Both the position numbers and the translations under genes were made by a program. The notes beneath the pieces were generated by a model. That model searched no databases. It saw only the letters and a list, made by a program, of their open reading frames with translations, and had not been told where the DNA came from. From the NCBI GenBank assembly GCA_022822565.1, contig JAJEAX010000113.1, positions 1 to 39,692 on the forward strand: 39,692 nucleotides of DNA. The letters are read 5' to 3'. How positions within the stretch are numbered: the first letter of the stretch is position 1; each line of letters begins with the position of its first letter. This document shows, piece after piece, positions 20,647 through 35,951 of this stretch. The DNA is from Candidatus Latescibacterota bacterium. GTDB lineage: Bacteria > Latescibacterota > UBA2968.

Positions 20647-23352
20647 ATGGCCGATTCTGTCGCACCAGGTACATATCGCGATACCGATCCCATCGAAACC
20701 GAAGAATGGATCGAATCTCTGGCTTATGTTCTGCAAAACGGCGGTCCCGACCGCGTGCGCTATTTGCTCGACCGCCTCGAACAAGAAGCAGAAAAAAGTC
20801 TGGACGTTGACATACCCTTCGCACCTCATACGCCTTATATCAACACCATCCCGCGCGACAAACAACTGCCCTATCCGGGCGACCGAGAAATCGAGCGTCG
20901 CATCAAAAGTCTCGTACGCTGGAATGCCATGGCCATGGTCACCCGTGCCAACAAAGAAGCCGATGGCATTGGCGGTCACATCTCCACCTTTGCATCGGCT
21001 GCCACGCTCTATGAAGTGGGTCAAAATCACTTCTTCAAAGCGCCCAATGGCGATTTCTCCGGGGACCAGGTCTTCTTCCAGGGCCATGCCTCGCCCGGCA
21101 TGTATGCCCGCGCCTTTCTCGAAGGCCGGCTAAGCACCGAACACCTCGAAAACTTCCGCCGAGAACTCCGCAACCCCGGCGGCCTGTCTTCCTATCCCCA
21201 CCCCTATCTCATGCCCGACTTCTGGCAATTCCCCACAGTATCCATGGGCCTTGGCCCCCTCGTGGGCATCTTCCAGGCCCGCTTTAACCGCTACCTCGAA
21301 GACCGCGGCCTCAAATCCACTCGCGATTCCAAAGTCTGGGTCTTCGTTGGCGACGGCGAAACAGACGAGCCCGAAACCCTCGGCGCCATCAGCCTGGCAA
21401 CCCGCGAACAACTCGACAACCTCATCTTTGTAATCAACTGCAACCTGCAACGCCTCGACGGTCCCGTGCGCGGCAATAGCAAAATAATCCAAGAGCTCGA
21501 ACAGGTCTTTCGCGGCGCTGGCTGGAATGTCATCAAAGTGATATGGGGAGACGATTGGGACGCACTACTCGAAAAAGACACCCAGGGCCTGCTTCAGCAG
21601 CGCATGGAAGAAGTCGTCGATGGTCAATACCAGAAATACACCGTCGAATCCGGCGAATACATCCGCCGCGACTTTTTTGGCACCCATCCCGACTTGCTCA
21701 AAATAGTCGAACATCTCTCGGATGAACAACTTCAAAAATTGCGTCGCGGAGGTCACGATCCCGAAAAAGTGTACGCCGCCTTCAACGCTGCCGTGGAACA
21801 CAAAGGCGCACCAACGGTCATCCTGGCCAAAACCATCAAAGGCTATGGCCTGGGCGAAGCTGGCGAAGGCCGCAACATGACCCACCAGCAAAAAAAGCTC
21901 GAAGAAGACGAGATGCGAGATTTCAAACGCCGCTTTGACATCCCCATCTCCGACAGCGAAGTGGGCAAAGCACCCTTTTATCGTCCCCCCGACGACAGCC
22001 CTGAAATGCAGTATCTGCAACAACGCCGAAACGAACTCGGCGGCTATTTGCCCGCCCGAAGCGTGCGCGCCAAACCCATTCAAGCGCCCTCGCGCGACGT
22101 ATTTGACGAAGCCTTCAAAGGTACAGGTGACCGCCAGGCTTCTACAACAATGGCTTTTGCGCGCCTATTTGCCAAACTCGCCCGCGACAAAGACATCGGC
22201 AAACTGCTCGTCCCCATCATCCCGGACGAAGCCCGCACCTTTGGTATGGATTCCCTATTTCGGCAACTCGGCATCTACTCGCACATGGGGCAGATATACG
22301 AACCCGTTGACGCGGGCAATATCAGCTACTACCGAGAAGCGCAAGACGGCCAAATTCTCGAAGAAGGCATCAACGAAGCCGGTGCCATGTCCTCATTCAT
22401 CTGCGCTGGCACAGCTTATGCCACACACGGCGTCAACACCATCCCATTTTACATCTACTATTCCATGTTCGGCTTTCAGCGCGTGGGCGACCTCATGTGG
22501 CTGGCCGGCGATATCCGCTGCAAGGGCTTTCTCTTAGGCGGAACAGCCGGGCGCACCACGCTCAACGGCGAAGGCCTCCAGCACGAAGACGGACACAGCC
22601 ACATTCTGGCCTCATCCGTTCCCAACTGTATCGCCTACGACCCCGCCTATGCTTACGAAATTGCCATCATCATTCAGGACGGCATTCGGCGCATGTACCA
22701 GGAACAGGAAGATGTTTATTACTACATGACTCTGGGCAATGAAAACTACGAACACCCCCCCATGCCCAAAGGCGTTGAAGAAGGCATTGTCAAAGGCATT
22801 TATCCGCTCAAAGAACACGAAATGCAACAGGGCCAGCACAAGATTCAGCTCTTTGGCAGTGCATCTATCCTTCGCGAAACCCTGCGCGCGCAAGAAATCC
22901 TCGCCGCAGAATACAATATTTCCGCCGACGTGTGGAGCGTCACTTCATACAAGGAATTGCGGCGGGACGCGCTTGAGACTGAGCGGTGGAACATGCTACA
23001 CCCAACGAGGCGCAAGAAAAAGCCGTACATCGTCAAAGTACTCGAAAAAACCGATGGGCCGATCGTCGCCGCATCCGATTACATGAAATCCCTGCCCGAA
23101 ATGATCCACCCCTGGGTACCCGAAGACATGATGGTGCTGGGCACAGATGGATTTGGGCGCAGCGACACGCGCCAGGCTCTGCGCCGGCATTTTGAAGTCG
23201 ATGCCGAAAGCATTGCTGTGGCCGCGCTTTACGTCCTGGCAAAACAGGGCAAAATTAAACGCGAACAGGTCGCCACAGCCATCGACGAACTCGGAATAGA
23301 TCCCGAGAAAATCGATCCGGTATCGGCTGGTCCGGTCACGACGTATTATTAG
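20647..23352 (+). CDS. aceE: Pyruvate dehydrogenase E1 component, homodimeric type
   Basis: RDTDPIETEEWIESLAYVLQNGGPDRVRYLLDRLE, GHASPGMYARAFLEGRL, WVFVGDGETDEPETLGAISLATREQLDNLIFVINCNLQRLDGPVRGN, TAGRTTLNGEGLQHEDGHSH. Confidence 0.97.
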   Translation: MADSVAPGTYRDTDPIETEEWIESLAYVLQNGGPDRVRYLLDRLEQEAEKSLDVDIPFAPHTPYINTIPRDKQLPYPGDREIERRIKSLVRWNAMAMVTRANKEADGIGGHISTFASAATLYEVGQNHFFKAPNGDFSGDQVFFQGHASPGMYARAFLEGRLSTEHLENFRRELRNPGGLSSYPHPYLMPDFWQFPTVSMGLGPLVGIFQARFNRYLEDRGLKSTRDSKVWVFVGDGETDEPETLGAISLATREQLDNLIFVINCNLQRLDGPVRGNSKIIQELEQVFRGAGWNVIKVIWGDDWDALLEKDTQGLLQQRMEEVVDGQYQKYTVESGEYIRRDFFGTHPDLLKIVEHLSDEQLQKLRRGGHDPEKVYAAFNAAVEHKGAPTVILAKTIKGYGLGEAGEGRNMTHQQKKLEEDEMRDFKRRFDIPISDSEVGKAPFYRPPDDSPEMQYLQQRRNELGGYLPARSVRAKPIQAPSRDVFDEAFKGTGDRQASTTMAFARLFAKLARDKDIGKLLVPIIPDEARTFGMDSLFRQLGIYSHMGQIYEPVDAGNISYYREAQDGQILEEGINEAGAMSSFICAGTAYATHGVNTIPFYIYYSMFGFQRVGDLMWLAGDIRCKGFLLGGTAGRTTLNGEGLQHEDGHSHILASSVPNCIAYDPAYAYEIAIIIQDGIRRMYQEQEDVYYYMTLGNENYEHPPMPKGVEEGIVKGIYPLKEHEMQQGQHKIQLFGSASILRETLRAQEILAAEYNISADVWSVTSYKELRRDALETERWNMLHPTRRKKKPYIVKVLEKTDGPIVAASDYMKSLPEMIHPWVPEDMMVLGTDGFGRSDTRQALRRHFEVDAESIAVAALYVLAKQGKIKREQVATAIDELGIDPEKIDPVSAGPVTTYY

Positions 23353-23388: not shown

Positions 23389-26300
23389 ATGAACACAGTT
23401 GGCCGACCAAATAGAGACGCGCTCAATAGTGCGTTGGACATCTACCGCGACGCCATGCGTTCGTTTATTGTCCGGTGTCTAAAGAAAGTTCAGGGCACAC
23501 AGGTCGAAGATGTGATATGCGACGCGCTAAATGACCGGCAGGCTCAGCAGTTTAGCCAAAATTTGCGTCAGAACGATAATATCGAAGCTGCGATAGATAT
23601 CAATGATTTCCCGCCACTCATCAGTAGAAACTGGCACGACATCTTCAGGGAACAGTTCGATGGGGAAATGACGGTTCAGAATAGGCTATGGCTGATTAAG
23701 GAGGCCCGGGATAAAGCAGCACATCCCGGGCAGCGAGATATGGATGCAGAGTTCGTCCGGACCAATCTGTATCAAATCGCCGATGTGCTCGACAAGATCA
23801 ATGTACCGACGCAGAAGCAGGCGGTAGAAAAGATCAGAGATCAACTGGTCACCCCTTCCAGCCAAAGCGATCCTGCTATCGTCCCGGCACAGACCCAGAG
23901 CGAACCCACAACACAACCCTCCCGTTCAAACGGCAACCTCACACCCTGGCGCGAAGTGATTCGACCCAATACAGATGTTCAGCAGGGAATTTTTCAGGAA
24001 GCAGAGTTTGCAGCAGACTTGCAGCAGGTATATGATGGACGCGCCAGCGCCACAAATTACGGCAACCCGGTCAGTTTCTTCAATCACACGTATATCACCC
24101 CAGGCATCCGCACATTACTGGTAAACACCCTAAAACGGCTTAGCGGCAATGGTGGCGATCCCGTTATCCAAACCAAAACGGGCTTCGGCGGAGGCAAGAC
24201 CCACAGCCTGATCGCGCTCTATCACCTGGTGAACAGCACCGACGCCCTGACCAATCCTACAGGGAATGAGCAATCCGATCAGACCTACGACGAAATACGC
24301 GGCCTGATGGAAGAAGCCGGGCTGAACACAGATAGCGGCATTCAAGCCCGCGTCGCCGTACTCGATGGAACGTATCTTTCATCCACCGATACAACAAAGA
24401 CCAGAGAAAAGGGCGACCCTCTAAATACCCTGTGGGGCGTGATGGCTTACCAGTTGGGTGGACAGGAGGCTTATGACCTCGTAGGTCAAGCCGCACGCCA
24501 AGGCACGGCACCCGGCGGTGCTCAACTCGATCAGCTATTCGCACAGGTCGCACCTTGTGTCATTCTTATTGACGAACTTGTGGCGTATGTACGCAATGCC
24601 GAAAGTACACAGGACAACATTTACACTTTCATCCAGGCACTCACCCAATCAGTCCGCAGGAACGACAAAACATCCCTGGTCGTAACCTTGCCCGAAAGCA
24701 GCATTGAGGCGGGAAGCGATGCCGGTATGGAGGCCCTCAGTCGGCTTGAGCATCTCTTGGGACGCATTGAAGCCGTATGGGAACCTCTTGAGGTAAACGA
24801 GGCGTTTGAAGTGGTACGCCGACGGCTCTTCGGCAATGTTATAGACGAAACAGAAAGAGATCGCACCTGCGAAAGATTCTCGCGGATGTACAATCCTCGA
24901 GACTATCCTCAAGGAACCAATGAACAGCGTTATTTGGAGCGCATGAAAGCGTGTTATCCCATCCACCCAGAAATATTTGACCGTCTCTATGAAGACTGGT
25001 CTGCTATTCCTCAGTTCCAGCGCACGCGTGGCGTGCTTAGGATGATGGCGCATTGCGTCAGCCGCCTGTATCTCAACAGCGATTCTTCTCCACTGATCCT
25101 GCCGGGCAATCTGACCTTAAGCGATGCAGCATTGGCCAACGAATTTGTCAGGTTGCTTGGTAACCAATGGAGTCCTGTCCTGTCTGAAATAGATAGCGAT
25201 GGCTCCAGGACCGATAACATAGATCATTCTTACCAGCGATTTGCTAATGTCGGAGGCGCAGCGCGGCGCATAGCTCGTGCCGTATTTCTCGGCAGTTCCG
25301 CCAGCGGTGCCGTCAAGGGTATTGATGCCCGCCAGATTCGCCTGGGCGTTGTTCAACCCGGACAGGGTGTCTCAGTCTATAACGAAGCTCTCAATCGCAT
25401 GAGCGGCGACCTCTATTACCTCTACAGCAGCGACGATCGGTACTATTTCCACGCAGAGGAAAACCTCAATAAAGTCGCCACCGATCGTGCGGGTGCATTG
25501 AACAACAGGGAAATCCACGCACACATAGTCAATGAGCTTCAAGAGACTGTTAGACGCCAATCGGAAGTTATGATATGTCCAAATAATTCCAGTGCCGTAC
25601 CCGAATCGGATGCAGTGCGCCTGGTGGTCCTGCCGCCTGACAAACCCCTGCCAAGCAGGTCAAGTGAACGCGATGACGCCACGCCAGAGGCATTGGATAT
25701 CCTCCAGAACCGCGGTGACGCGAGCCGGATTTGTAGAAATACCCTGCTCTTCTTGACCGCGAGGAATGACGAAATTCGCACCCTGCGCAATGTGGTCAGG
25801 CAGTATTTGGCATGGAATTCCATCGTCAATGGTGCCAATCGGCTCGAAAACCTCTCAGGCGACCGTCTAAGACAGACACAAAACAGCATCAGAACAGCGG
25901 AATCAGAGATACGGACCGCTCTGGTGAATGCCTACCGCTGGGCCTTGGCACCGGTGCAAGACAACCCACAAAAAGCCGAATACCGAATGAACGAGGTGCA
26001 GATCAATGCTCGGGATACCGGTGAGATTATCCAGAGTGCGTTCAATACGTTTATCGAAGGCGAAGCACTCGTGGGAAACATATCTCCTTCCGCACTTACC
26101 AGTATGCTGGAACAATACGTATGGAATAACGAGACCTACCGCGACCACATCGATATAGATATCCTGTGGAATATGATGACGAATAACGTTTACATGCATC
26201 GCCTGCGGAATAAGGACATACTGATAAGGTGCATTGGGCAAGGCGTGACTGAGCGCAAATTCGGATATGCCGAAAGTCACTATAAAGACGATTACAAGGG

Positions 26301-26730
26301 TCTGCGCTTTGGCGAACCTATGTCTGATATGTCAATTATAGCAGATAGCGGTTCAGGACTTTTGGTCAATCCCGAAATGGCACAACTCGTAAAGGATGAA
26401 ACGCCGCCGGAGGAAGAAACACAGACACCAACTGATGACACAGACACCTACATCACCGAAGAAGAACCTACCGAAACCGAGGATACTGTACCTTCACAAC
26501 GCGGTCCCAGGCACATCACTGCCACCAAGACAATGCAGAGCGATATTTCCCTGGATGATGTCAACCTGTTGCGCGAAGAGATTATCCGCAACCTACGCGA
26601 CGATGGCGGGGAAATAACCGTTAGCATTACCATCAATGCAAAAAAATTAGCTGGCTTCTCTGAAAGTATCACTCGCTCCGTGCGAGAGAACAGTACCCAG
26701 CTTAGTATTGATTTTAAAGAAAAGCTATGA
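23389..26730 (+). CDS. DUF499-type ATPase with N-terminal Swt1-like HEPN domain
   Basis: N-terminal NSALDIYRDAMRSFIVRCLKKVQG...KEARDKAAHPGQ (Swt1-type HEPN-like); Walker A KTGFGGGKTHSLIALYHL; Walker B CVILIDELVAYVRN; overall DUF499 pattern. Confidence 0.82.
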   Translation: MNTVGRPNRDALNSALDIYRDAMRSFIVRCLKKVQGTQVEDVICDALNDRQAQQFSQNLRQNDNIEAAIDINDFPPLISRNWHDIFREQFDGEMTVQNRLWLIKEARDKAAHPGQRDMDAEFVRTNLYQIADVLDKINVPTQKQAVEKIRDQLVTPSSQSDPAIVPAQTQSEPTTQPSRSNGNLTPWREVIRPNTDVQQGIFQEAEFAADLQQVYDGRASATNYGNPVSFFNHTYITPGIRTLLVNTLKRLSGNGGDPVIQTKTGFGGGKTHSLIALYHLVNSTDALTNPTGNEQSDQTYDEIRGLMEEAGLNTDSGIQARVAVLDGTYLSSTDTTKTREKGDPLNTLWGVMAYQLGGQEAYDLVGQAARQGTAPGGAQLDQLFAQVAPCVILIDELVAYVRNAESTQDNIYTFIQALTQSVRRNDKTSLVVTLPESSIEAGSDAGMEALSRLEHLLGRIEAVWEPLEVNEAFEVVRRRLFGNVIDETERDRTCERFSRMYNPRDYPQGTNEQRYLERMKACYPIHPEIFDRLYEDWSAIPQFQRTRGVLRMMAHCVSRLYLNSDSSPLILPGNLTLSDAALANEFVRLLGNQWSPVLSEIDSDGSRTDNIDHSYQRFANVGGAARRIARAVFLGSSASGAVKGIDARQIRLGVVQPGQGVSVYNEALNRMSGDLYYLYSSDDRYYFHAEENLNKVATDRAGALNNREIHAHIVNELQETVRRQSEVMICPNNSSAVPESDAVRLVVLPPDKPLPSRSSERDDATPEALDILQNRGDASRICRNTLLFLTARNDEIRTLRNVVRQYLAWNSIVNGANRLENLSGDRLRQTQNSIRTAESEIRTALVNAYRWALAPVQDNPQKAEYRMNEVQINARDTGEIIQSAFNTFIEGEALVGNISPSALTSMLEQYVWNNETYRDHIDIDILWNMMTNNVYMHRLRNKDILIRCIGQGVTERKFGYAESHYKDDYKGLRFGEPMSDMSIIADSGSGLLVNPEMAQLVKDETPPEEETQTPTDDTDTYITEEEPTETEDTVPSQRGPRHITATKTMQSDISLDDVNLLREEIIRNLRDDGGEITVSITINAKKLAGFSESITRSVRENSTQLSIDFKEKL

Positions 26731-27632
26731 AATACTATTTAACCCGTGGAACAATTGGAGCGACCGATCTTGAAATCGATGAAAACCGCTACGAGGACTA
26801 CAAAGAATCAAATAAGGTGCTCAAAAGTTGTTTGTCGTTTGAGAAAAGCTACGAAATTCTGCTCTCAAACTACATCGATCTGGAAAATGAACGGCTATCA
26901 TGGGCAACGCTTGAGATGGTACGAGTCAGGTCGAGAGATGACTTTTTGAACGCAACGCTCTCTTTAGATCGACGAATGGTAAACTTTTTATCAACGGCTC
27001 GTCTGCATATTGAACATCTTCAAAAACGGGGAGGAGACTGCGTGAGCGGCCAGTCCATTGAAGATGTCAAAGCTGTTGTTAAATGTTTCTGCGATACCGA
27101 GAAGGCCAATAAGCCGGAGTATAAATTCATGTGGGATCTACGAAATGAGGTGCTGCACTCGAGCCTGCCAACTAATTGGGTCAGTTTCTCTTCAAATCGG
27201 ACGAACTCATTTGATGATTCAAATCCAAAATTCGAGTATTCGCTAAACTTTGGATTGTCAAAATCGTTAGCCATGGGTTTTAAGCAGAATGAACTCGAGT
27301 CCATATCAAGTAATGACAAAATCGATTTGATGTCGGTTAGCAGGGTTTATATGGAATCACTCAGCACTATTCACGTAAAGTTTAGAGAGTACATCGCAGA
27401 GTCTGTTTCGCAAGCGCGTAGCAAAATGGAAGAAGCGTTTCATCGGTACAAAAAAGTGTGCGAGGATAACCTAATCGGTCTGTATCTTTGGAAAGTCAAC
27501 GACTCGTCTGATATTGTAGAAGAGTTTCACTTCTCTTTGTTCCATGATGACCGGCGTATTCAACTGCAAAAAAAGAATCGCAAGCTCGTCAATTTGCGTA
27601 ATCGACATGTAACTGGAAAACAAGCTGAGTAA
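26727..27632 (+). CDS. Uncharacterised protein with HEPN-type RNxxxH motif
   Basis: ATGA overlap with the upstream stop; helical sequence with FMWDLRNEVLHSSLP (R-N-x3-H) preceded by FLSTARLHIEHLQK. Confidence 0.7.
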   Translation: MKYYLTRGTIGATDLEIDENRYEDYKESNKVLKSCLSFEKSYEILLSNYIDLENERLSWATLEMVRVRSRDDFLNATLSLDRRMVNFLSTARLHIEHLQKRGGDCVSGQSIEDVKAVVKCFCDTEKANKPEYKFMWDLRNEVLHSSLPTNWVSFSSNRTNSFDDSNPKFEYSLNFGLSKSLAMGFKQNELESISSNDKIDLMSVSRVYMESLSTIHVKFREYIAESVSQARSKMEEAFHRYKKVCEDNLIGLYLWKVNDSSDIVEEFHFSLFHDDRRIQLQKKNRKLVNLRNRHVTGKQAE

Positions 27633-27840
27633 CGAGAAGTAAATGGACATTTCAAAAAAATTTGTGACGTAGGGCGATAAGTCGCGTTGATGAATACAAA
27701 AAATATGGGTTGTGATACTCTCAAAAACGTGTAATTTTACTTGAAAAACTGCCGCGAGATAATTCTGTACAAACTCAGCGGATCAGCCGCGAACCAATCC
27801 TATAGCGACCACTCCTATTTACTATCGTTGGAAATTCATA

Positions 27841-27880
27841 GGGGAAGAACCATGACCAAAGGGGGAAAGCCATGACCAAA
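27841..27880 (+). repeat. 20-bp tandem imperfect duplication containing SD-like sequence and ATG
   Basis: ggggaagaaccatgaccaaa / gggggaaagccatgaccaaa, 17/20 identical. Confidence 0.85.
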
Positions 27881-28081
27881 CACACATCGAAATCCCAAAA
27901 GCCGAACCGAGAGCAACAACACGCTGCCATGCTAAAGGAGGCATTGACCCGCCCAGGAGTCCGCGAAGTTATGCAGGTTTACCAAAACTACCAAGAGACA
28001 GATAAGGGGCTCGATTCTTACCGTCAGGCAACCAAATGCCCGGAAATTGTGACAACGACTGACCACGCTAATGTACAGTAA
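27872..28081 (+). CDS. Small hypothetical protein (69 aa)
   Basis: MTKHTSKSQKPNREQQHAAMLKEALTRPGVREVMQVYQNYQETDKGLDSYRQATKCPEIVTTTDHANVQ; SD gggggaa 8 nt upstream; co-directional with the cassette. Confidence 0.6.
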   Translation: MTKHTSKSQKPNREQQHAAMLKEALTRPGVREVMQVYQNYQETDKGLDSYRQATKCPEIVTTTDHANVQ

Positions 28082-28106
28082 ACTTTCATAAACTAAGAGC
28101 TTATCT

Positions 28107-29084
28107 ATGCCAATATGGAGTGAAATCTTAGCCGAACTCGCCCAATCCCGCGAACAAGATGGCCCGCCTGATTTCGATGGCGTTCGAAGAAAATATCTCC
28201 TCAAACTCCACCAGCATACAAGTCGAAATGTTGTCCTATACGCTTCGGGATGGATTCAGAAGGAAGCACCGGCGGCTTATATTTCGATCAGTGACGAGGA
28301 CATTCACGCCCTCATGGAAGTAACATCGGGACTAAGCGGCGGAAATCTCGACCTGATTTTACATAGCCCCGGCGGCTCTCCCGAAGCGGCGGAGGCCATA
28401 GTTTCTTATCTAAGATCTCGATTTTCTCACATCCGAGTAATTGTTCCCCAACTTGCCATGTCGGCAGCGACCATGATTTCATGTGCAGCTGATGAGATCT
28501 TACTGGGCAAACACTCCTTTCTTGGGCCGACCGACTCGCAAATTTTGCTCACTACCTCTTTAGGAATTCGCTTCGTTCCTGCTCAGGCCATCTTAGATCA
28601 GTTCGATAGAGCGCAAGAGGAATGCTCTGATCCAGCAAAACTATCGGCTTGGTTGCCAATGTTGAGCCAATATGGCCCAGATCTTTTGGTGCAATGTGAA
28701 ACAGCTCTGAATTTGTCCAAGGAACTCGTAAGGACATGGCTGGAAACCTACATGTTCAAAGATAGCCCTGATTCATTTAAAAAAGCCTCGGCGATTTCCG
28801 ACTGGCTTGCCAACCACAAAAACTTCAAGAGCCATAGCCGGCACATATCTCGGACAGATCTCTTGAAACACCAACTAAAGGTGATTGAGCTTGAAAAAGA
28901 TCATATACTGCAAGACCTCAGTTTGTCGGTATTCCATGCAACTACCCATACATTTACCGGGACTCCTGCGGTAAAAATCGTTGAAAATCATACCGGCCGT
29001 GCATTTATCAAGCAGCATATCCCGCCACCGCCGCCACAGACGGTTCAGGTTGATCTTGGCATTGGCCCTAATCAACCAGTCTAA
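28107..29084 (+). CDS. SDH_sah family (ClpP-class) serine protease-like protein
   Basis: LDLILHSPGGSPEAAEAIVSYLRSRFSHIRVIVPQLAMSAATMISCAADEILLGKHSFLGPTDSQI, the ClpP/SppA-like SDH proteinase pattern with MSAAT nucleophile elbow. Confidence 0.82.
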   Translation: MPIWSEILAELAQSREQDGPPDFDGVRRKYLLKLHQHTSRNVVLYASGWIQKEAPAAYISISDEDIHALMEVTSGLSGGNLDLILHSPGGSPEAAEAIVSYLRSRFSHIRVIVPQLAMSAATMISCAADEILLGKHSFLGPTDSQILLTTSLGIRFVPAQAILDQFDRAQEECSDPAKLSAWLPMLSQYGPDLLVQCETALNLSKELVRTWLETYMFKDSPDSFKKASAISDWLANHKNFKSHSRHISRTDLLKHQLKVIELEKDHILQDLSLSVFHATTHTFTGTPAVKIVENHTGRAFIKQHIPPPPPQTVQVDLGIGPNQPV

Positions 29085-29116
29085 TTCAGCGAGAATATGG
29101 ACAAGATAGTGCTGAT

Positions 29117-31927
29117 ATGACTACCCAACCCCAATATCGCCGTAAACTCATCGAAGTTGACCTGCCACTTAAGGATATCAACCGCGAATCCGCACGCGAG
29201 AAGTCTATCAGGCACGGACATCCTTCGACTCTACACTTGTGGTGGGCACGCCGTCCACTGGCTGCCTGCCGCGCCGTCATTTTCGCCAGTATGGTAGATG
29301 ACCCTTCCGAATGTCCCGATGAGTTTCCCGATGAGGAGATGCAACGCATTGAGCGCGAGCGGCTACATGACATCATCAAAGAACTGGTCAAGTGGGAGAA
29401 CACAGACGAGAGCAAACCCGATGTAAAAACACTCGTAGCGAAAGCGCGATACGAAATTGCTCGCTCAGTGGCACGCACACACGGAGAAACCGCGCCTACC
29501 GATCCAGTTGAAGTACTACGCTATCTGAACGACAAGGCTTTACCCATCTACGATCCCTTCGCTGGCGGTGGCTCGATTCCGCTGGAGGCACAGCGACTCG
29601 GACTGCGTGCTGTTGGTTCCGACCTCAATCCGGTAGCTGTCCTGATCAACAAAGCATTGATTGAACTGCCACCTAAATTCAGAAATCATCCACCTGTAAA
29701 TCCCGATGCCGATTCGATAGGCATGACCGTAGGCAAAGGCAGAAGGGCACAGCGCGTTCCATGGCTTGGTGCGGCAGGACTCGCGGACGATATTCGCTAC
29801 TACGGCCAGTGGATGCGCGAGGAAGCATTCAAGCGCATCGGCCATCTCTATCCAATGGCGAAACTGTCCGACGGTAGCGAGGCCACCGTAATCGCGTGGC
29901 TGTGGGCACGGACTGTTCCCTGCCCCAACCCGGCGTGTGGCATTAATATACCTCTCTTAAAGACTTTTCAATTATCAAAGAAGCGTGGTAACGAGCACTG
30001 GATAAGGCCCATTGTTGACCGAAAGACAAAGACCATATCGTGGACCGCGCAGGACAATTCCAATGGTGTTCCATCTACCGGCACGGTGAATCGCAATGGC
30101 GCAACCTGCCTTGGCTGTGGCGGTGCAGTGAAGCTGACTTATGTGCGTGAACAGGCGCGTGACGGAAATATGAGTGAACAGATGACAGCAATAGTCGCCG
30201 AGGGTGACCGCAAGCGACTATTCCTTTCGCCCACCGACGAGCACACCCAAGCTGCTTTGACTGCCAATCCTACTTGGCGACCAAGTGGTAGGCTTCCTGA
30301 ACAGGCAATGAACCTTCGTGTTCAGAGTTACGGGATTACAGAATGGCAACAGTTGTTTACGGCACGGCAACTGACCACATTGACCACTTTCAGTGACCTG
30401 CTAGTTGAGGCTGGCGAATTGTTGAAGAAAGATGGGGCTGATAAAGAATACGCCGATGCCGTGAGTACATACCTTGCATTTACTATTAGCAGAGTCGCTG
30501 ACAGCGGTTGTAGTTCTGCGACTTGGCAAAACGTGGGCGACTTTGTCGCCCACGTTTTCGCACGTCAAGTAATTGGGTTGATCTGGGATTTTGCCGAAGC
30601 TAACACCTTTTCTAGTTCAACGCAAAATTGGTTAGGTCAAATCAAGTGGGTTGCTGAGGTTGTCGAGCGTCTCCCCACGGAGGTGAACACAGGCAAGGTA
30701 TATCAAGCTAATGCATCTACCACAATTCACGTTGACAGTGGTCCTGTTATCGTTACCGATCCGCCCTATTACGACAATATCGGTTACGCCGACCTATCTG
30801 ATTTTTTTTATATTTGGCTACGCCAAGCACTCCGCGGCGTTTATCCCGACCTATTTGCAGGAATCACAACTCCCAAAGACGAGGAAATGATTGTCGGTCC
30901 CCGGTTTAAAGATGCTTCTCAGCGTTTCGAGGACTTACAGGGTAGGACCCTAAAGTTGATACGGGAGCATTGCGCCGATGAATTTCCCTCTTCCATCTTT
31001 TACGCCTACAAACAGCAGGAGAAAAAACGCGAGGGAAGAACATCTACGGGCTGGGAAACCATGCTGAATGCCGTAATATTGGCAGGATTTGAGATTGTTC
31101 GAACTTGGCCAATGCGAACCGAGCGTTCGGCAAGGTCAAGGGCACTCGGCTCCAACGCCCTTGCCTCATCTGTCGTCCTCGTCTGCCGCCCTCGTCCTGA
31201 GGATGCGCCCGTCGCTACGCGCCGCCAATTTTTTGATGCGTTGGAGAAAGAGATGCCCGAAGCCCTTGACCAACTCACGCAAGAAGGGCATATCGCCCCG
31301 ACCGATCTCGCACAAGCCGCTATCGGCCCGGGGATGCAGATTTACTCGCGCTACAGCCGCGTAGAGACCATAAGCGGTGAGCCGGTACCAGTGCGCGAAG
31401 CCCTGGCAGCTATCAACAAGGCCATTGCCGATTACGACGAGCGGCAGGAGGGCGACCTCGATTCGGAGAGTCGCTTCTGCATGGATTGGCTGAAACAATA
31501 CGGCTATGAAGAAGGGCAATACGGCGAGGCAGAGACGCTGGCACGCGCCAAAAATGTAGCCATTGGCAACTTAAATTTGAACCGCCTGCTCACTGCTGAA
31601 GGAGGCCGGGTAAGGTTGCTACCCATTGATGAGTTTGGAGACGACCGACCATTGACTCTGGGCAATATGACGGCCTGGGAAGGGTGTTTTCGAATGGCAT
31701 ATCACCTGAACCGCGAGGATGGCAGAGGCATTGAAGGCGCAGGCATGGTTGCGCGAGCGATGGACGGCAATGTGGAATCTATTGAACGACTGGCACGCAT
31801 TCTTTACGGGCATTATGACCGCAAAGGCGACTCTCAAAATGCTGTCATCTTCAACAATCTCGTCACATCATGGCAGGATATTATCAGGGAAATGCAGAAT
31901 GAGGGTCAAGGAACGCTGGGGATATGA
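29117..31927 (+). CDS. DUF1156-domain DNA methyltransferase
   Basis: RKLIEVDLPLKDINRESAREKSIRHGHPSTLHLWWARRPLAACRAVIFASMVDDPSE (DUF1156); DPFAGGGSIPLEAQRLGLRAVGSDLNPVAV (SAM motif); TDPPYYDNIGYADLSDFFYIWLR (catalytic DPPY); two CxxC pairs (CPNPAC, CLGC). Confidence 0.93.
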   Translation: MTTQPQYRRKLIEVDLPLKDINRESAREKSIRHGHPSTLHLWWARRPLAACRAVIFASMVDDPSECPDEFPDEEMQRIERERLHDIIKELVKWENTDESKPDVKTLVAKARYEIARSVARTHGETAPTDPVEVLRYLNDKALPIYDPFAGGGSIPLEAQRLGLRAVGSDLNPVAVLINKALIELPPKFRNHPPVNPDADSIGMTVGKGRRAQRVPWLGAAGLADDIRYYGQWMREEAFKRIGHLYPMAKLSDGSEATVIAWLWARTVPCPNPACGINIPLLKTFQLSKKRGNEHWIRPIVDRKTKTISWTAQDNSNGVPSTGTVNRNGATCLGCGGAVKLTYVREQARDGNMSEQMTAIVAEGDRKRLFLSPTDEHTQAALTANPTWRPSGRLPEQAMNLRVQSYGITEWQQLFTARQLTTLTTFSDLLVEAGELLKKDGADKEYADAVSTYLAFTISRVADSGCSSATWQNVGDFVAHVFARQVIGLIWDFAEANTFSSSTQNWLGQIKWVAEVVERLPTEVNTGKVYQANASTTIHVDSGPVIVTDPPYYDNIGYADLSDFFYIWLRQALRGVYPDLFAGITTPKDEEMIVGPRFKDASQRFEDLQGRTLKLIREHCADEFPSSIFYAYKQQEKKREGRTSTGWETMLNAVILAGFEIVRTWPMRTERSARSRALGSNALASSVVLVCRPRPEDAPVATRRQFFDALEKEMPEALDQLTQEGHIAPTDLAQAAIGPGMQIYSRYSRVETISGEPVPVREALAAINKAIADYDERQEGDLDSESRFCMDWLKQYGYEEGQYGEAETLARAKNVAIGNLNLNRLLTAEGGRVRLLPIDEFGDDRPLTLGNMTAWEGCFRMAYHLNREDGRGIEGAGMVARAMDGNVESIERLARILYGHYDRKGDSQNAVIFNNLVTSWQDIIREMQNEGQGTLGI

Positions 31928-32304
31928 GCGTGGAACACGATAGCAGTTCAACAACACCCTTCGCCCTGAAATACCAGCTTGAGCGGGATATTCGTCCGTT
32001 CAATCGGGACAGCGTGCGCGGTTTACCAAAAGGTCGTTCAGGCGTGTACGCCATGTGGCTTCCCATCGGTAACGAAGGCGATTACGACTGCTTGTACGTC
32101 GGCATGTCTCGGGTCTGCATGCGGCAACGTCTCTTGCAGCACCTATCAGATGAGGACAATCTCGAACTTCGACGCCAGCTTCGCATGTTCCGCGACATCG
32201 TCCAGTTCTCAGCAGCATTCACCCAAGGCGTGCAACAAACCCGTGCGCTGGAGGCTCTGGTCATCCGCGACTGGCAACCGGAAACGAATAAGATCCACAG
32301 GTGA
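31924..32304 (+). CDS. GIY-YIG nuclease-domain protein
   Basis: SGVYAMWLP...DCLYVGMSRVCMRQRLLQHLSD...ALEALVIRDWQPETNK: GVY / YVG / R / E pattern; ATGA overlap with the methylase stop. Confidence 0.75.
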   Translation: MSVEHDSSSTTPFALKYQLERDIRPFNRDSVRGLPKGRSGVYAMWLPIGNEGDYDCLYVGMSRVCMRQRLLQHLSDEDNLELRRQLRMFRDIVQFSAAFTQGVQQTRALEALVIRDWQPETNKIHR

Positions 32305-32374
32305 ACGGTGGATACAGCGTGAGAGGAGCGAGGAAGTGAGGTGGGATCGGTGTCTGAGTATCCTAACCAGACAA

Positions 32375-32461
32375 ATGGCAAAAAAAGAGACGCCCCTTGC
32401 GGAGCGTCGGCCCAACGATACTATCGTTAGGGTGGTAAAAGAAATCTACTTAAATATGTAA
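32375..32461 (+). CDS. Possible 28-aa small ORF
   Basis: MAKKETPLAERRPNDTIVRVVKEIYLNM*; no clear SD, overlaps hairpins; weak. Confidence 0.2.
   Translation: MAKKETPLAERRPNDTIVRVVKEIYLNM
32389..32428. repeat. Two adjacent hairpins (gacgc...gcgtc and aacgata-c-tatcgtt)
   Basis: GACGC/GCGTC at 32389-32408; perfect 7-bp arms at 32414-32428; A7 tract on the 5' side gives a minus-strand U-run. Confidence 0.6.
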
Positions 32462-32539
32462 TTTCGTCAAGAAAAAAGTTATAAAAAAATAGCCTATATC
32501 AAACCTTATGTCCCATATCAGACAGAAGGAAACCCATTG

Positions 32540-33160
32540 ATGCAGCGCGTGTCGGTGTACGTTGATGGGTTCAATCTCTACTACGGCCTCAGGTCCAAAG
32601 GCTGGCGGCGGTACTATTGGCTCGACATATATCGTCTGGCAGAGAAACTGCTACGCCCCGAACAGTGTCTTGCGGCAGTCAGGTATTTTACTGCCAGATT
32701 GTACAAAGGAGTTGATCCAGAGAAACAAGAGCGACAGAAAATCTACCTGGAAGCATTGACAACTCTCTCAGACCTGCACATTCATTATGGATACTACCTT
32801 CAAAAGGACAGAACCTGCTCACAATGTGGCGCGACCAGGAAGACCTATGAAGAAAAAATGACAGATGTGAATATCGCCGTTGAGTTGCTCGGCGATGCTC
32901 ATGACGATGTATTCGACACAGCAATCATTATCTCTGGTGATAGTGATTTGTCCGGGCCGATAAGCACTGTTCGCCGCCGCTACCCACAGAAACGGGTGAT
33001 TATCGCCTTCCCGCCGGAGCGCAACAAGTCTTTCCGATTGCGTAATGTGGCAACTGCATCTTTTACTATAGGTCGTGATGCCTTCAGAGACAGTCAGTTA
33101 CCGGATCAGATCACCAAGACCGATGGGTATATTCTTAACAAGCCCCCGAAGTGGCGTTGA
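32540..33160 (+). CDS. NYN (LabA/DUF88, PIN-like) domain protein with zinc ribbon
   Basis: RVSVYVDGFNLYYGL, KMTDVNIAVELLGDAHDDVFDTAIIISGDSDLSGPISTVR (NYN acidic residues); CSQCG knuckle. ATG 32540 preferred to the TTG at 32537. Confidence 0.88.
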   Translation: MQRVSVYVDGFNLYYGLRSKGWRRYYWLDIYRLAEKLLRPEQCLAAVRYFTARLYKGVDPEKQERQKIYLEALTTLSDLHIHYGYYLQKDRTCSQCGATRKTYEEKMTDVNIAVELLGDAHDDVFDTAIIISGDSDLSGPISTVRRRYPQKRVIIAFPPERNKSFRLRNVATASFTIGRDAFRDSQLPDQITKTDGYILNKPPKWR

Positions 33161-33270
33161 GAGTGAGAACTTTTGGCGATAGGCATGCAAGAATACAATG
33201 ACATAAAATGGTAATGTTCTTATTGTATATTTTTTAAGTCTATACCCCGTTGTGTAGAAAGGAAATTCTC

Positions 33271-34524
33271 GTGGCAACCGAATTTAAACTTCCCGATCTC
33301 GGCGAAGGTGTAGAAGCCGGCGATGTTGTCAGCGTACTCATTGCCGAAGGCGACACGGTTGAAATCGATCAGAGCGTGCTCGAACTCGAAACCGACAAAG
33401 CCCTCGTTGAAGTACCCAGCAGTGTTGCTGGCACAGTCACAGAAATACACGTTAATGCCGGAGACCGCGTGCCCGTGGGCAGCTTATTGATCTCCGTTGA
33501 AGAAGGCGAACAACAAGCAGAGCCTGAAGCCGAAGCACCGGCTTCTGTACAAAAAAAAGAACCCGAACCCACCGCCAGAGCACCCGAACCAACACCTCCC
33601 GCACCCAGACCACCTGCACCCGCATCCAACGGCGATCCCATTCCCGCAGCGCCATCCACGCGGCGGCTCGCGCGAGAACTCGGCGTAGATCTCACCCAGG
33701 TCGCTGGTTCAGGCCCCGGTGGACGCATCTCACAAGACGACATCAAAGCCGCTGTGCGCGATCGGCAAACAGGTGGTCCCGCACCAACTGCTCCCGTCCA
33801 ACTGCCCGACTTCTCGAGATGGGGCAACATCGAACGCCAACCCCTCAGCAAAGTTCGGCAAATTATTGCAAAAAATATGAGCCAGGCCTGGCAACAGGTG
33901 GCTCATGTCACGCAATTTGATCGCGCAGACGTCACAGACCTCGAAGCATTTCGGCAACGCAACAAAGAAAAAGCCGAAGCACAGGGTGCCAAACTGACGC
34001 CGACCATCCTTGCGCTAAAAGCAATCATCACCGCGCTCAAGACCTTTCCGCAATTCAACGCCAGCCTCGATGCGGGGGCCAATGAAATTATACTCAAACA
34101 CTACTACAACCTCGGCATCGCCGTTGACACCGAGCGCGGCTTACTCGTTCCCGTCATCAAAGACGTCGATCGCAAAGACATCCTGGAATTAGCTCTCGAA
34201 CTCGGCGACATCAGCAACCGCGCGCGCACCAACAAAATTGGCCTCGACGAACTGCAAGGCGGCACATTCACCATCACCAACCTGGGCAGCCTGGGCGTGG
34301 GTGAATTTACCCCCATCGTCAATCACCCCGAAGTTGCAATATTGGGACTCGGACGCGCCAGAGAAGAAGCCACCGTGCGCGAAGGACGCATCGAACCTCG
34401 CCTCATCATGCCTTTGGCACTCTCTTATGACCACCGCGTTATTGACGGCGCCGACGGCGCGCGATTCATGCGAAAAATCGTCGATGCGCTCGAAAACCCG
34501 GAACTCATGCTCATGGGCGGATAA
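33271..34524 (+). CDS. Dihydrolipoamide acyltransferase (E2) of pyruvate dehydrogenase
   Basis: GTG start after aaagga; single lipoyl domain LELETDKALVEVPS, Pro/Ala-rich linker, E3-binding domain ARELGVDLTQVAGSGPGGRISQDDI, catalytic SYDHRVIDGADGARF. Confidence 0.95.
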   Translation: MATEFKLPDLGEGVEAGDVVSVLIAEGDTVEIDQSVLELETDKALVEVPSSVAGTVTEIHVNAGDRVPVGSLLISVEEGEQQAEPEAEAPASVQKKEPEPTARAPEPTPPAPRPPAPASNGDPIPAAPSTRRLARELGVDLTQVAGSGPGGRISQDDIKAAVRDRQTGGPAPTAPVQLPDFSRWGNIERQPLSKVRQIIAKNMSQAWQQVAHVTQFDRADVTDLEAFRQRNKEKAEAQGAKLTPTILALKAIITALKTFPQFNASLDAGANEIILKHYYNLGIAVDTERGLLVPVIKDVDRKDILELALELGDISNRARTNKIGLDELQGGTFTITNLGSLGVGEFTPIVNHPEVAILGLGRAREEATVREGRIEPRLIMPLALSYDHRVIDGADGARFMRKIVDALENPELMLMGG

Positions 34525-34538
34525 ACTGGAGAAACCAC

Positions 34539-35951
34539 ATGGCCGAAACGCACAAAACCGATCTCCTCGTAATCGGCGGCGGTCCCGGCGGATATACAGC
34601 GGCCTTTCGCGCTGCTGATCTGGGTCTGCATGTCACCCTCGTCAATGCCGACGACAACCTCGGTGGCACCTGTTTATTGCGCGGATGCATCCCATCCAAA
34701 GCCCTGCTCCACGTTGCCGAACTCATCACCGAAGCCAGCGAAGCCAGAACTTATGGCCTCACCTTTGGCGATCCCAAAATCGATCTGGACGCCCTGCGGG
34801 GCTGGAAAGACAACATCATCACCCGCCTCTCAAATGGCCTATCTGGCCTGGTGCGCCAGCGCAAGGTTACCCACCTGACGGGCTACGCGCAATTTGAGAA
34901 CTCGCAAAGCGCGTCTATCGAAGGCGATGGAGATATCGACCACGTCGAATTTGAACACGCCATCATCGCCACGGGATCACGCCCTATCATCCTCCCAATT
35001 TTCGCGCTCGACACACCGCGCATCCTGGACTCGACAACAGCACTCGACCTCGACGAAATACCCAAAAGCCTTCTCGTCGTTGGCGGGGGCATCATCGGCC
35101 TCGAACTCGGCAGTGTTTATGCGGCATTGGGAAGTGCCGTCACCGTCGTCGAAATGACCGACACCCTCCTGCCCGGCACCGATCCCGACCTGGTCAAACC
35201 CCTCGAAACCCGATTGCGTCAGGCATTCAGCGCCATACACACCAGCACGCGCGTCACGCATATCGAAGAAGTCAACACCGGCATTGAAGTAAACTGGGAA
35301 GGTGAAGAATCGAAAACATCCAAAATATTCGACCGCGTCCTCCTCTGCATTGGCCGACGCCCGAATACAGACAATATCGGCCTGGAAAACACGGACATTG
35401 AACCCAATGACCACGGATTCATCGAAGTCGATTCGCAGATGCGTACAAACGACCCCCGCCTCTTTGCAATCGGCGATGCTATTCCAGGCCCCGGCCTTGC
35501 CCACAAAGCCGCGTACGAAGGCAAAATCGCCGCCGAAGTTCTCGCCGGTGAACCCGCGTCTTTTGACGCACTCATTCCCTCTGTCGTGTACACCGACCCC
35601 GAAATTGCCTGGGTGGGCCTGACCGAAACCGACGCTCTCAAACAAGGTCGCAAAGTCGATATCGTGCGCTTTCCCTGGGCCGCCCTGGGCAAAGCGCATG
35701 CAATTGGACGCATCGAAGGCCAGACCAAGCTCATTGTCGATCCCTATACCCAACGCGTACTCGGCATGGGTATTGTGGGACCAAACGCGGGCGACCTCAT
35801 CGCCGAAGGCGCCCTCGCCATTGAAATGGCTGCCGTCGCCGAAGACATTGCCCACACCATTCACCCCCACCCATCGCTTGCCGAATCCATCGGCATAGCC
35901 TCAGAAATCCACCTCGGCTCTGCGACCGATGTGTACATGCCTAAAAAATAG
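34539..35951 (+). CDS. lpdA: Dihydrolipoyl dehydrogenase (E3)
   Basis: LLVIGGGPGGYTAAFRAADLG, GGTCLLRGCIPSKALLH redox disulfide, VVGGGIIGLELGSVYAALGS, AIGDAIPGPGLAHKAAYEGK, C-terminal HPHPSLAE. Confidence 0.97.
   Translation: MAETHKTDLLVIGGGPGGYTAAFRAADLGLHVTLVNADDNLGGTCLLRGCIPSKALLHVAELITEASEARTYGLTFGDPKIDLDALRGWKDNIITRLSNGLSGLVRQRKVTHLTGYAQFENSQSASIEGDGDIDHVEFEHAIIATGSRPIILPIFALDTPRILDSTTALDLDEIPKSLLVVGGGIIGLELGSVYAALGSAVTVVEMTDTLLPGTDPDLVKPLETRLRQAFSAIHTSTRVTHIEEVNTGIEVNWEGEESKTSKIFDRVLLCIGRRPNTDNIGLENTDIEPNDHGFIEVDSQMRTNDPRLFAIGDAIPGPGLAHKAAYEGKIAAEVLAGEPASFDALIPSVVYTDPEIAWVGLTETDALKQGRKVDIVRFPWAALGKAHAIGRIEGQTKLIVDPYTQRVLGMGIVGPNAGDLIAEGALAIEMAAVAEDIAHTIHPHPSLAESIGIASEIHLGSATDVYMPKK

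Follow-up and report, generated by a model that had tools for sequence, protein, structure and literature searches.

Gene content of the aceE-aceF island

The window analyzed here is a stretch of 39,692 nucleotides from a sponge-type Latescibacterota genome, in which a cassette of genes sits co-directionally between aceE and aceF, inside the pyruvate dehydrogenase operon. An earlier note, made from the sequence itself, had described seven co-directional open reading frames (ORFs) with two ATGA overlaps, and the coordinates of all seven, each on the + strand, as well as of the overlaps at the gene 1/gene 2 and gene 5/gene 6 junctions, were confirmed. The position of the cassette between aceE and aceF is not mentioned in that note. 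The island and its borders are as follows, with the basis of each assignment in brackets.

20647..23352, + strand: aceE, left border of the island (adjoins aceF in seven congeners)
23389..26730, + strand: gene 1, hmaC-like core gene, HEPN_Swt1-DUF499 AAA+ ATPase (PADLOC, Pfam, clade-conserved motifs)
26727..27632, + strand: gene 2, insert, orphan of 301 aa, HEPN-like at most (RNEVLH motif)
27872..28081, + strand: gene 3, insert, 69-aa protein (relatives adjoin SDH-type proteases)
28107..29084, + strand: gene 4, insert, ClpP-fold SDH-type serine protease (Pfam PF01972, phrog_11747, alignment)
29117..31927, + strand: gene 5, hmaB-like core gene, DUF1156 N6-adenine methylase with DPPY motif (PADLOC, Pfam, tree)
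31924..32304, + strand: gene 6, core gene, 126-aa GIY-YIG nuclease, its start overlapping the end of hmaB (active-site alignment, predicted fold, neighbourhood)
32537..33160, + strand: gene 7, downstream accessory gene, NYN nuclease HEC-09 (Hma-embedded candidate) (PADLOC, Pfam)
33250..34524, + strand: aceF, a 2-oxoacid dehydrogenase acyltransferase gene bordering the island on the right (Pfam, 3e-89)
34539-35951: lpd, directly after aceF

The results showed that genes 1 and 5 correspond to two components of Hma, the helicase-methylase-ATPase system, which was defined as a three-gene operon including the helicase (PMC8565338). Gene 1 matched the PADLOC profile of HmaC with an E-value of 1.4e-248 (aa 183-1109) and carries DUF499 (Pfam, 4e-27) with a Walker A motif, GFGGGKTH, at aa 265, preceded by an N-terminal HEPN_Swt1 domain (2.5e-7; 31.4 bits against a cut-off of 27.5) with its Rx4H motif at aa 107-112; both the HEPN and the Walker motifs are kept across the clade of the window described below. 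Gene 5 matched HmaB at 1.1e-299 and DUF1156 at 1.8e-30. The two proteins match HmaC and HmaB over their full length. The earlier note was right to take the DUF499 and DUF1156 proteins as partners, and modification-based defence was likewise rightly named as the likely role of such a locus. The methylase of a sibling genome (G004, L012:13920-16205) was found to be a mosaic in comparison to window positions 29117-31927, its DNA being about 95% identical as far as window position ~29550 and 61-83% thereafter, a pattern consistent with a replaced recognition region.

For gene 6 on its own, the match to the Pfam GIY-YIG families was marginal (PF20815, 0.008, below the cut-off). Its membership of the family was nevertheless confirmed by the family alignment and the predicted fold: G40, Y42, Y58, G60, R67, R69, E110 and N122 are invariant among 16 proteins from three phyla, so that the GIY and YIG motifs and the catalytic Arg, Glu and Asn are all present, and the nine best fold matches of the predicted model (pLDDT 86) were UvrC GIY-YIG domains with a probability of 1.00. 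The dN/dS of this gene was 0.08-0.24.

HmaA and GIY-YIG across the methylase tree

Related loci from Latescibacterota, Poribacteria and Chloroflexota were annotated with profiles for HmaA, HmaB, HmaC, GIY-YIG and other genes, and a tree was built from 61 HmaB sequences. The window methylase falls within a clade of 36 (SH-aLRT 99), in which HmaA adjoins none of the 36 members and a GIY-YIG gene adjoins 31 of the 34 loci that could be judged; the sister clade is ordinary Hma, with HmaA adjoining 12 of 23 members and GIY-YIG none of the 14 judgeable loci. Three members of the window clade are missing the GIY-YIG gene, and two of these are also missing hmaC, while in one locus (L020) a SoFic-type gene separates hmaB from the GIY-YIG gene. 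A reverse search starting from the GIY-YIG protein found matches in 4 of 400 Chloroflexota genomes, and all four adjoin hmaB and hmaC of the window clade. Across the three phyla, the HEPN-DUF499 ATPase, the DUF1156 methylase and the GIY-YIG protein thus recur with conserved active-site motifs and with no HmaA alongside, and genes 1, 5 and 6 are the conserved core of the locus. The absence of a helicase noted earlier for the cassette is borne out, as no helicase lies in the window, and it is a heritable feature of this lineage. As for the GIY-YIG protein, it was correctly called a nuclease, but it is the sole constant extra gene and not one effector among several.

Essentially a single change on the tree, and not many independent ones, separates the loci with HmaA from those with GIY-YIG, and it has been maintained across three phyla. 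Because the change is a single event, the linkage pattern of HmaA and GIY-YIG may in part be mere inheritance, and an independent-pairs test of the two genes found too few independent changes on the tree to be informative.

We also counted HmaA genome-wide in 28 genomes carrying the variant. A type-1 HmaA was present somewhere in seven of them, including the window's own; another seven contained weaker helicases only (567-690 bits); and the remaining 14, among them the one-contig genome G008, had no HmaA match at E <= 1e-60. In the window's own genome, a full-length HmaA (1607 bits) lies on contig C189, and neither a second HmaC nor a second full-length HmaB match was found. This arrangement, together with the distant HmaA of the other carriers, is what would be expected if the locus worked with an HmaA encoded elsewhere, i.e., if it were an ordinary Hma whose helicase gene has been relocated. 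We consider this unlikely, given that half of the variant genomes are without an HmaA match and that the distant HmaA in three genomes (G060, G061 and G064) adjoins its own HmaC and/or HmaB; in a further genome (G066) and in the window's own, no HmaC or HmaB was seen beside the distant HmaA. The HmaA on C189 (L006:3286-15117) is followed by a gene for a TmtA-like sacsin-type ATPase and, further on, a PDC-S57 gene. A canonical HmaC immediately upstream of it was looked for and was absent, as the 216 bp upstream are non-coding and the contig then ends; any upstream partner may be located on sequence past that end. Based on the genome-wide counts and the separate HmaC/HmaB partners, the variant does without HmaA in most of its hosts, although a split system retains some probability in the window's own genome.

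Contig C127 of the window's genome (L007:737-7620) encodes a second SNF2-type helicase (1018 aa). In its vicinity is a protein of 1057 aa that, judged by eye, looks like a sacsin-type ATPase, and this region is perhaps another defence locus.

A different division of labor can be considered for the core, in which the HEPN domain of gene 1 is the main effector. The system would then sense phage and degrade RNA to stop infection, and the GIY-YIG protein would contribute little or act in processing. The Rx4H motif is present in all full-length HmaC proteins of the clade with the sole exception of L176, most of the sampled canonical HmaC proteins of Poribacteria have no HEPN domain, and a back-up effector role of HEPN with DUF499 has already been proposed (PMC12839542). 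However, HEPN is common in helicase-bearing DUF499 systems too, with 1370 taxa in the published survey (PMC12839542) and L023, L080 and L144-L148 among the loci studied here, so that HEPN does not track the loss of HmaA as GIY-YIG does, and we regard a leading role for HEPN as improbable.

Inserted genes and the insertion site

The spacing between hmaC and hmaB ranged from 12 bases to 4.5 kb among the related loci, and genes 2 to 4 are inserts in this variable slot. The slot is nearly empty in four loci (L015, L016, L019 and L020); elsewhere it holds an AAA ATPase and other genes (L013), a DUF433 gene (L010), an NYN gene (L018) or a transposase (L159), and in many Poribacteria loci (L155-L176) it is filled by a family of ~299 aa, which by eye looks PD-(D/E)XK-like, and by short fragments of the same family. 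In the window, it is occupied by the orphan gene 2 and the pair formed by the 69-aa protein and the SDH-type protease.

Gene 2 had been described as an RNxxxH HEPN-like protein. The motif is present (RNEVLH at aa 139-144), but the protein matched no HEPN family profile, nor any other entry of Pfam, PADLOC or NCBIfam, and an R[ND]xxxH motif occurred in 7% of shuffles of the same protein. A weak match to phrog_12680 (7.7e-4) was obtained, searches of 64 Latescibacterota genomes, of plasmids and of viral contigs found no relative, and the structure model (pLDDT 39) was unusable. Kinship with the ~299-aa Poribacteria family was considered and no match was found.

The identification of gene 4 as an SDH_sah protease agreed with its Pfam match (PF01972, 2.5e-16), and it also matched phrog_11747 nearly over its full length (4.2e-86). 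S119, D143 and H243 are invariant in nine relatives and would form the catalytic triad. Members of this protease family occur in phages of Gordonia, Porphyromonas and Shewanella and in plasmids with phage genes, in several of which a small ORF lies just upstream of the protease, and relatives of gene 3 in L012, L090 and L092 adjoin a protease as well. A related protease with 45% identity adjoins a canonical Hma at L181, and other SDH-protease neighbourhoods are mixed, with restriction-modification genes (L089, L091, L092) or metabolic genes (L090). Gene 7 was correctly identified as an NYN nuclease (Pfam, 6.8e-14), and it matched PADLOC HEC-09 at 7.7e-89 over the whole profile (1-203/203).

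Contrary to the suggestion of the earlier note, the seven genes are not one new defence system: the core pair is the catalogued HmaC and HmaB, the NYN gene is the catalogued HEC-09, and, the GIY-YIG gene apart, the rest are inserts. Neither gene 2 nor the protease pair nor the NYN gene is a constant partner of the Hma-type core, within or beside which they are inserted. With regard to recurrence, the core was found in three phyla, and the protease-containing set in only one eroded sibling locus, L012.

At the insertion site, aceE and aceF are about 26 bases apart in the seven congeners in which it is empty, and in three further congeners (G004, G007 and G008) it is occupied or eroded in various ways. 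In G007, the start of hmaC runs directly into the last part of the GIY-YIG gene, with an NYN gene following, which marks a deletion scar. In G004, there is an in-frame deletion in hmaC, the end of hmaB and the NYN gene are lost, and gene 2 is missing although its first codons remain. In G008, a GmrSD-type gene (best PADLOC matches Orf5 and HEC-06) and an NYN gene are found instead (L093:14723-17399), and defence genes have therefore been exchanged at this site within the genus. A chimeric assembly was ruled out by L012, which has the same junction in an independent genome. No repeat was found to mark both ends of the island, and site-specific integration is thus not supported; because filled and empty sites have different sequences throughout the aceE-aceF spacer, the likelier route is an exchange of the island by way of its flanking genes. 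Partly deleted copies in G007 and G004 and swapped contents in G008 would also fit a decaying island, in which the leftovers of several systems persist because transcription from the aceE promoter happens to read through them, and have no joint function, but this is the least probable explanation considered, as all seven window ORFs retain their full length, genes 1 and 3-7 are under purifying selection (dN/dS 0.04-0.27 in a codon-level comparison, gene 2 having no relative to compare), and the same core is kept in more than 30 loci of three phyla.

Proposed mechanism and comparison with known systems

We propose, with a probability of roughly 0.55, that the core (genes 1, 5 and 6) represents a helicase-free lineage of the Hma or DUF499-centred BR (BREX-related) restriction system, in which the GIY-YIG protein has replaced HmaA. 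The anatomy, conservation and linkage of the core are observed, and from the protein families we infer a restriction mechanism in which the methylase would mark host DNA at whatever sequence its recognition region reads. The DUF499 ATPase would assemble on invading DNA that lacks the mark, and the GIY-YIG protein, taking over from the HmaA helicase-nuclease, would nick or cut this DNA. As a back-up to halt infection, the HEPN domain fused to the ATPase may cut RNA. The other genes, 2-4 and 7, would be add-ons that were acquired independently and inserted among and behind the core genes, the site being a variable island of the aceE-aceF-lpd operon. Whether the core also amounts to a fourth type of DUF499-centred restriction, one that works without a helicase, with a stand-alone GIY-YIG nuclease replacing the helicase-nuclease and with recognition and any translocation of DNA left to the ATPase and methylase alone, we judge to be about evenly balanced. 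A lineage found in three phyla that keeps the ATPase and methylase but has GIY-YIG instead of a helicase provides a natural experiment for telling the components that recognise invading DNA from those that destroy it. The aceE-aceF junction is also a defence hot spot in an operon of central metabolism, and within a single genus it is seen empty, partly filled and full.

No paper joining DUF499 and GIY-YIG as one system was found in a search that reached few subscription papers and no bioRxiv preprints. Hma corresponds to the Type-1 DUF499-centred BR system, and according to a 2026 survey, all DUF499-centred systems consist of an ATPase, a methylase and a helicase and fall into three subtypes, with the Snf2 helicase-nuclease regarded as the main effector of Hma/BR and with no mention of GIY-YIG (PMC12839542).

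Among the accessory genes, gene 7 matches HEC-09 of PADLOC, which at the aceE-aceF site of G007 and G008 stands without an intact Hma, and gene 4 matches the ClpP-fold protease of PHROG 11747 (4e-86), except that it is embedded in a restriction-type operon and not in a phage. Type-3 BREX and the Type-2 and Type-3 BR systems have an ATPase and a methylase related to those of the window, but by their descriptions they also have a helicase plus DUF3780 or PglZ/iSTAND, none of which is in the window; profile searches with the seven window proteins gave no match to PglZ or iSTAND. The closest likeness is to Hma/Type-1 BR, of which the N-terminal HEPN-DUF499 fusion is an already known version, and the difference from it is that the window clade has no adjoining HmaA and has a GIY-YIG gene after hmaB instead. 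Judged by its gene content, the helicase-free, GIY-YIG-bearing core appears to be an undescribed variant of the known Hma system.
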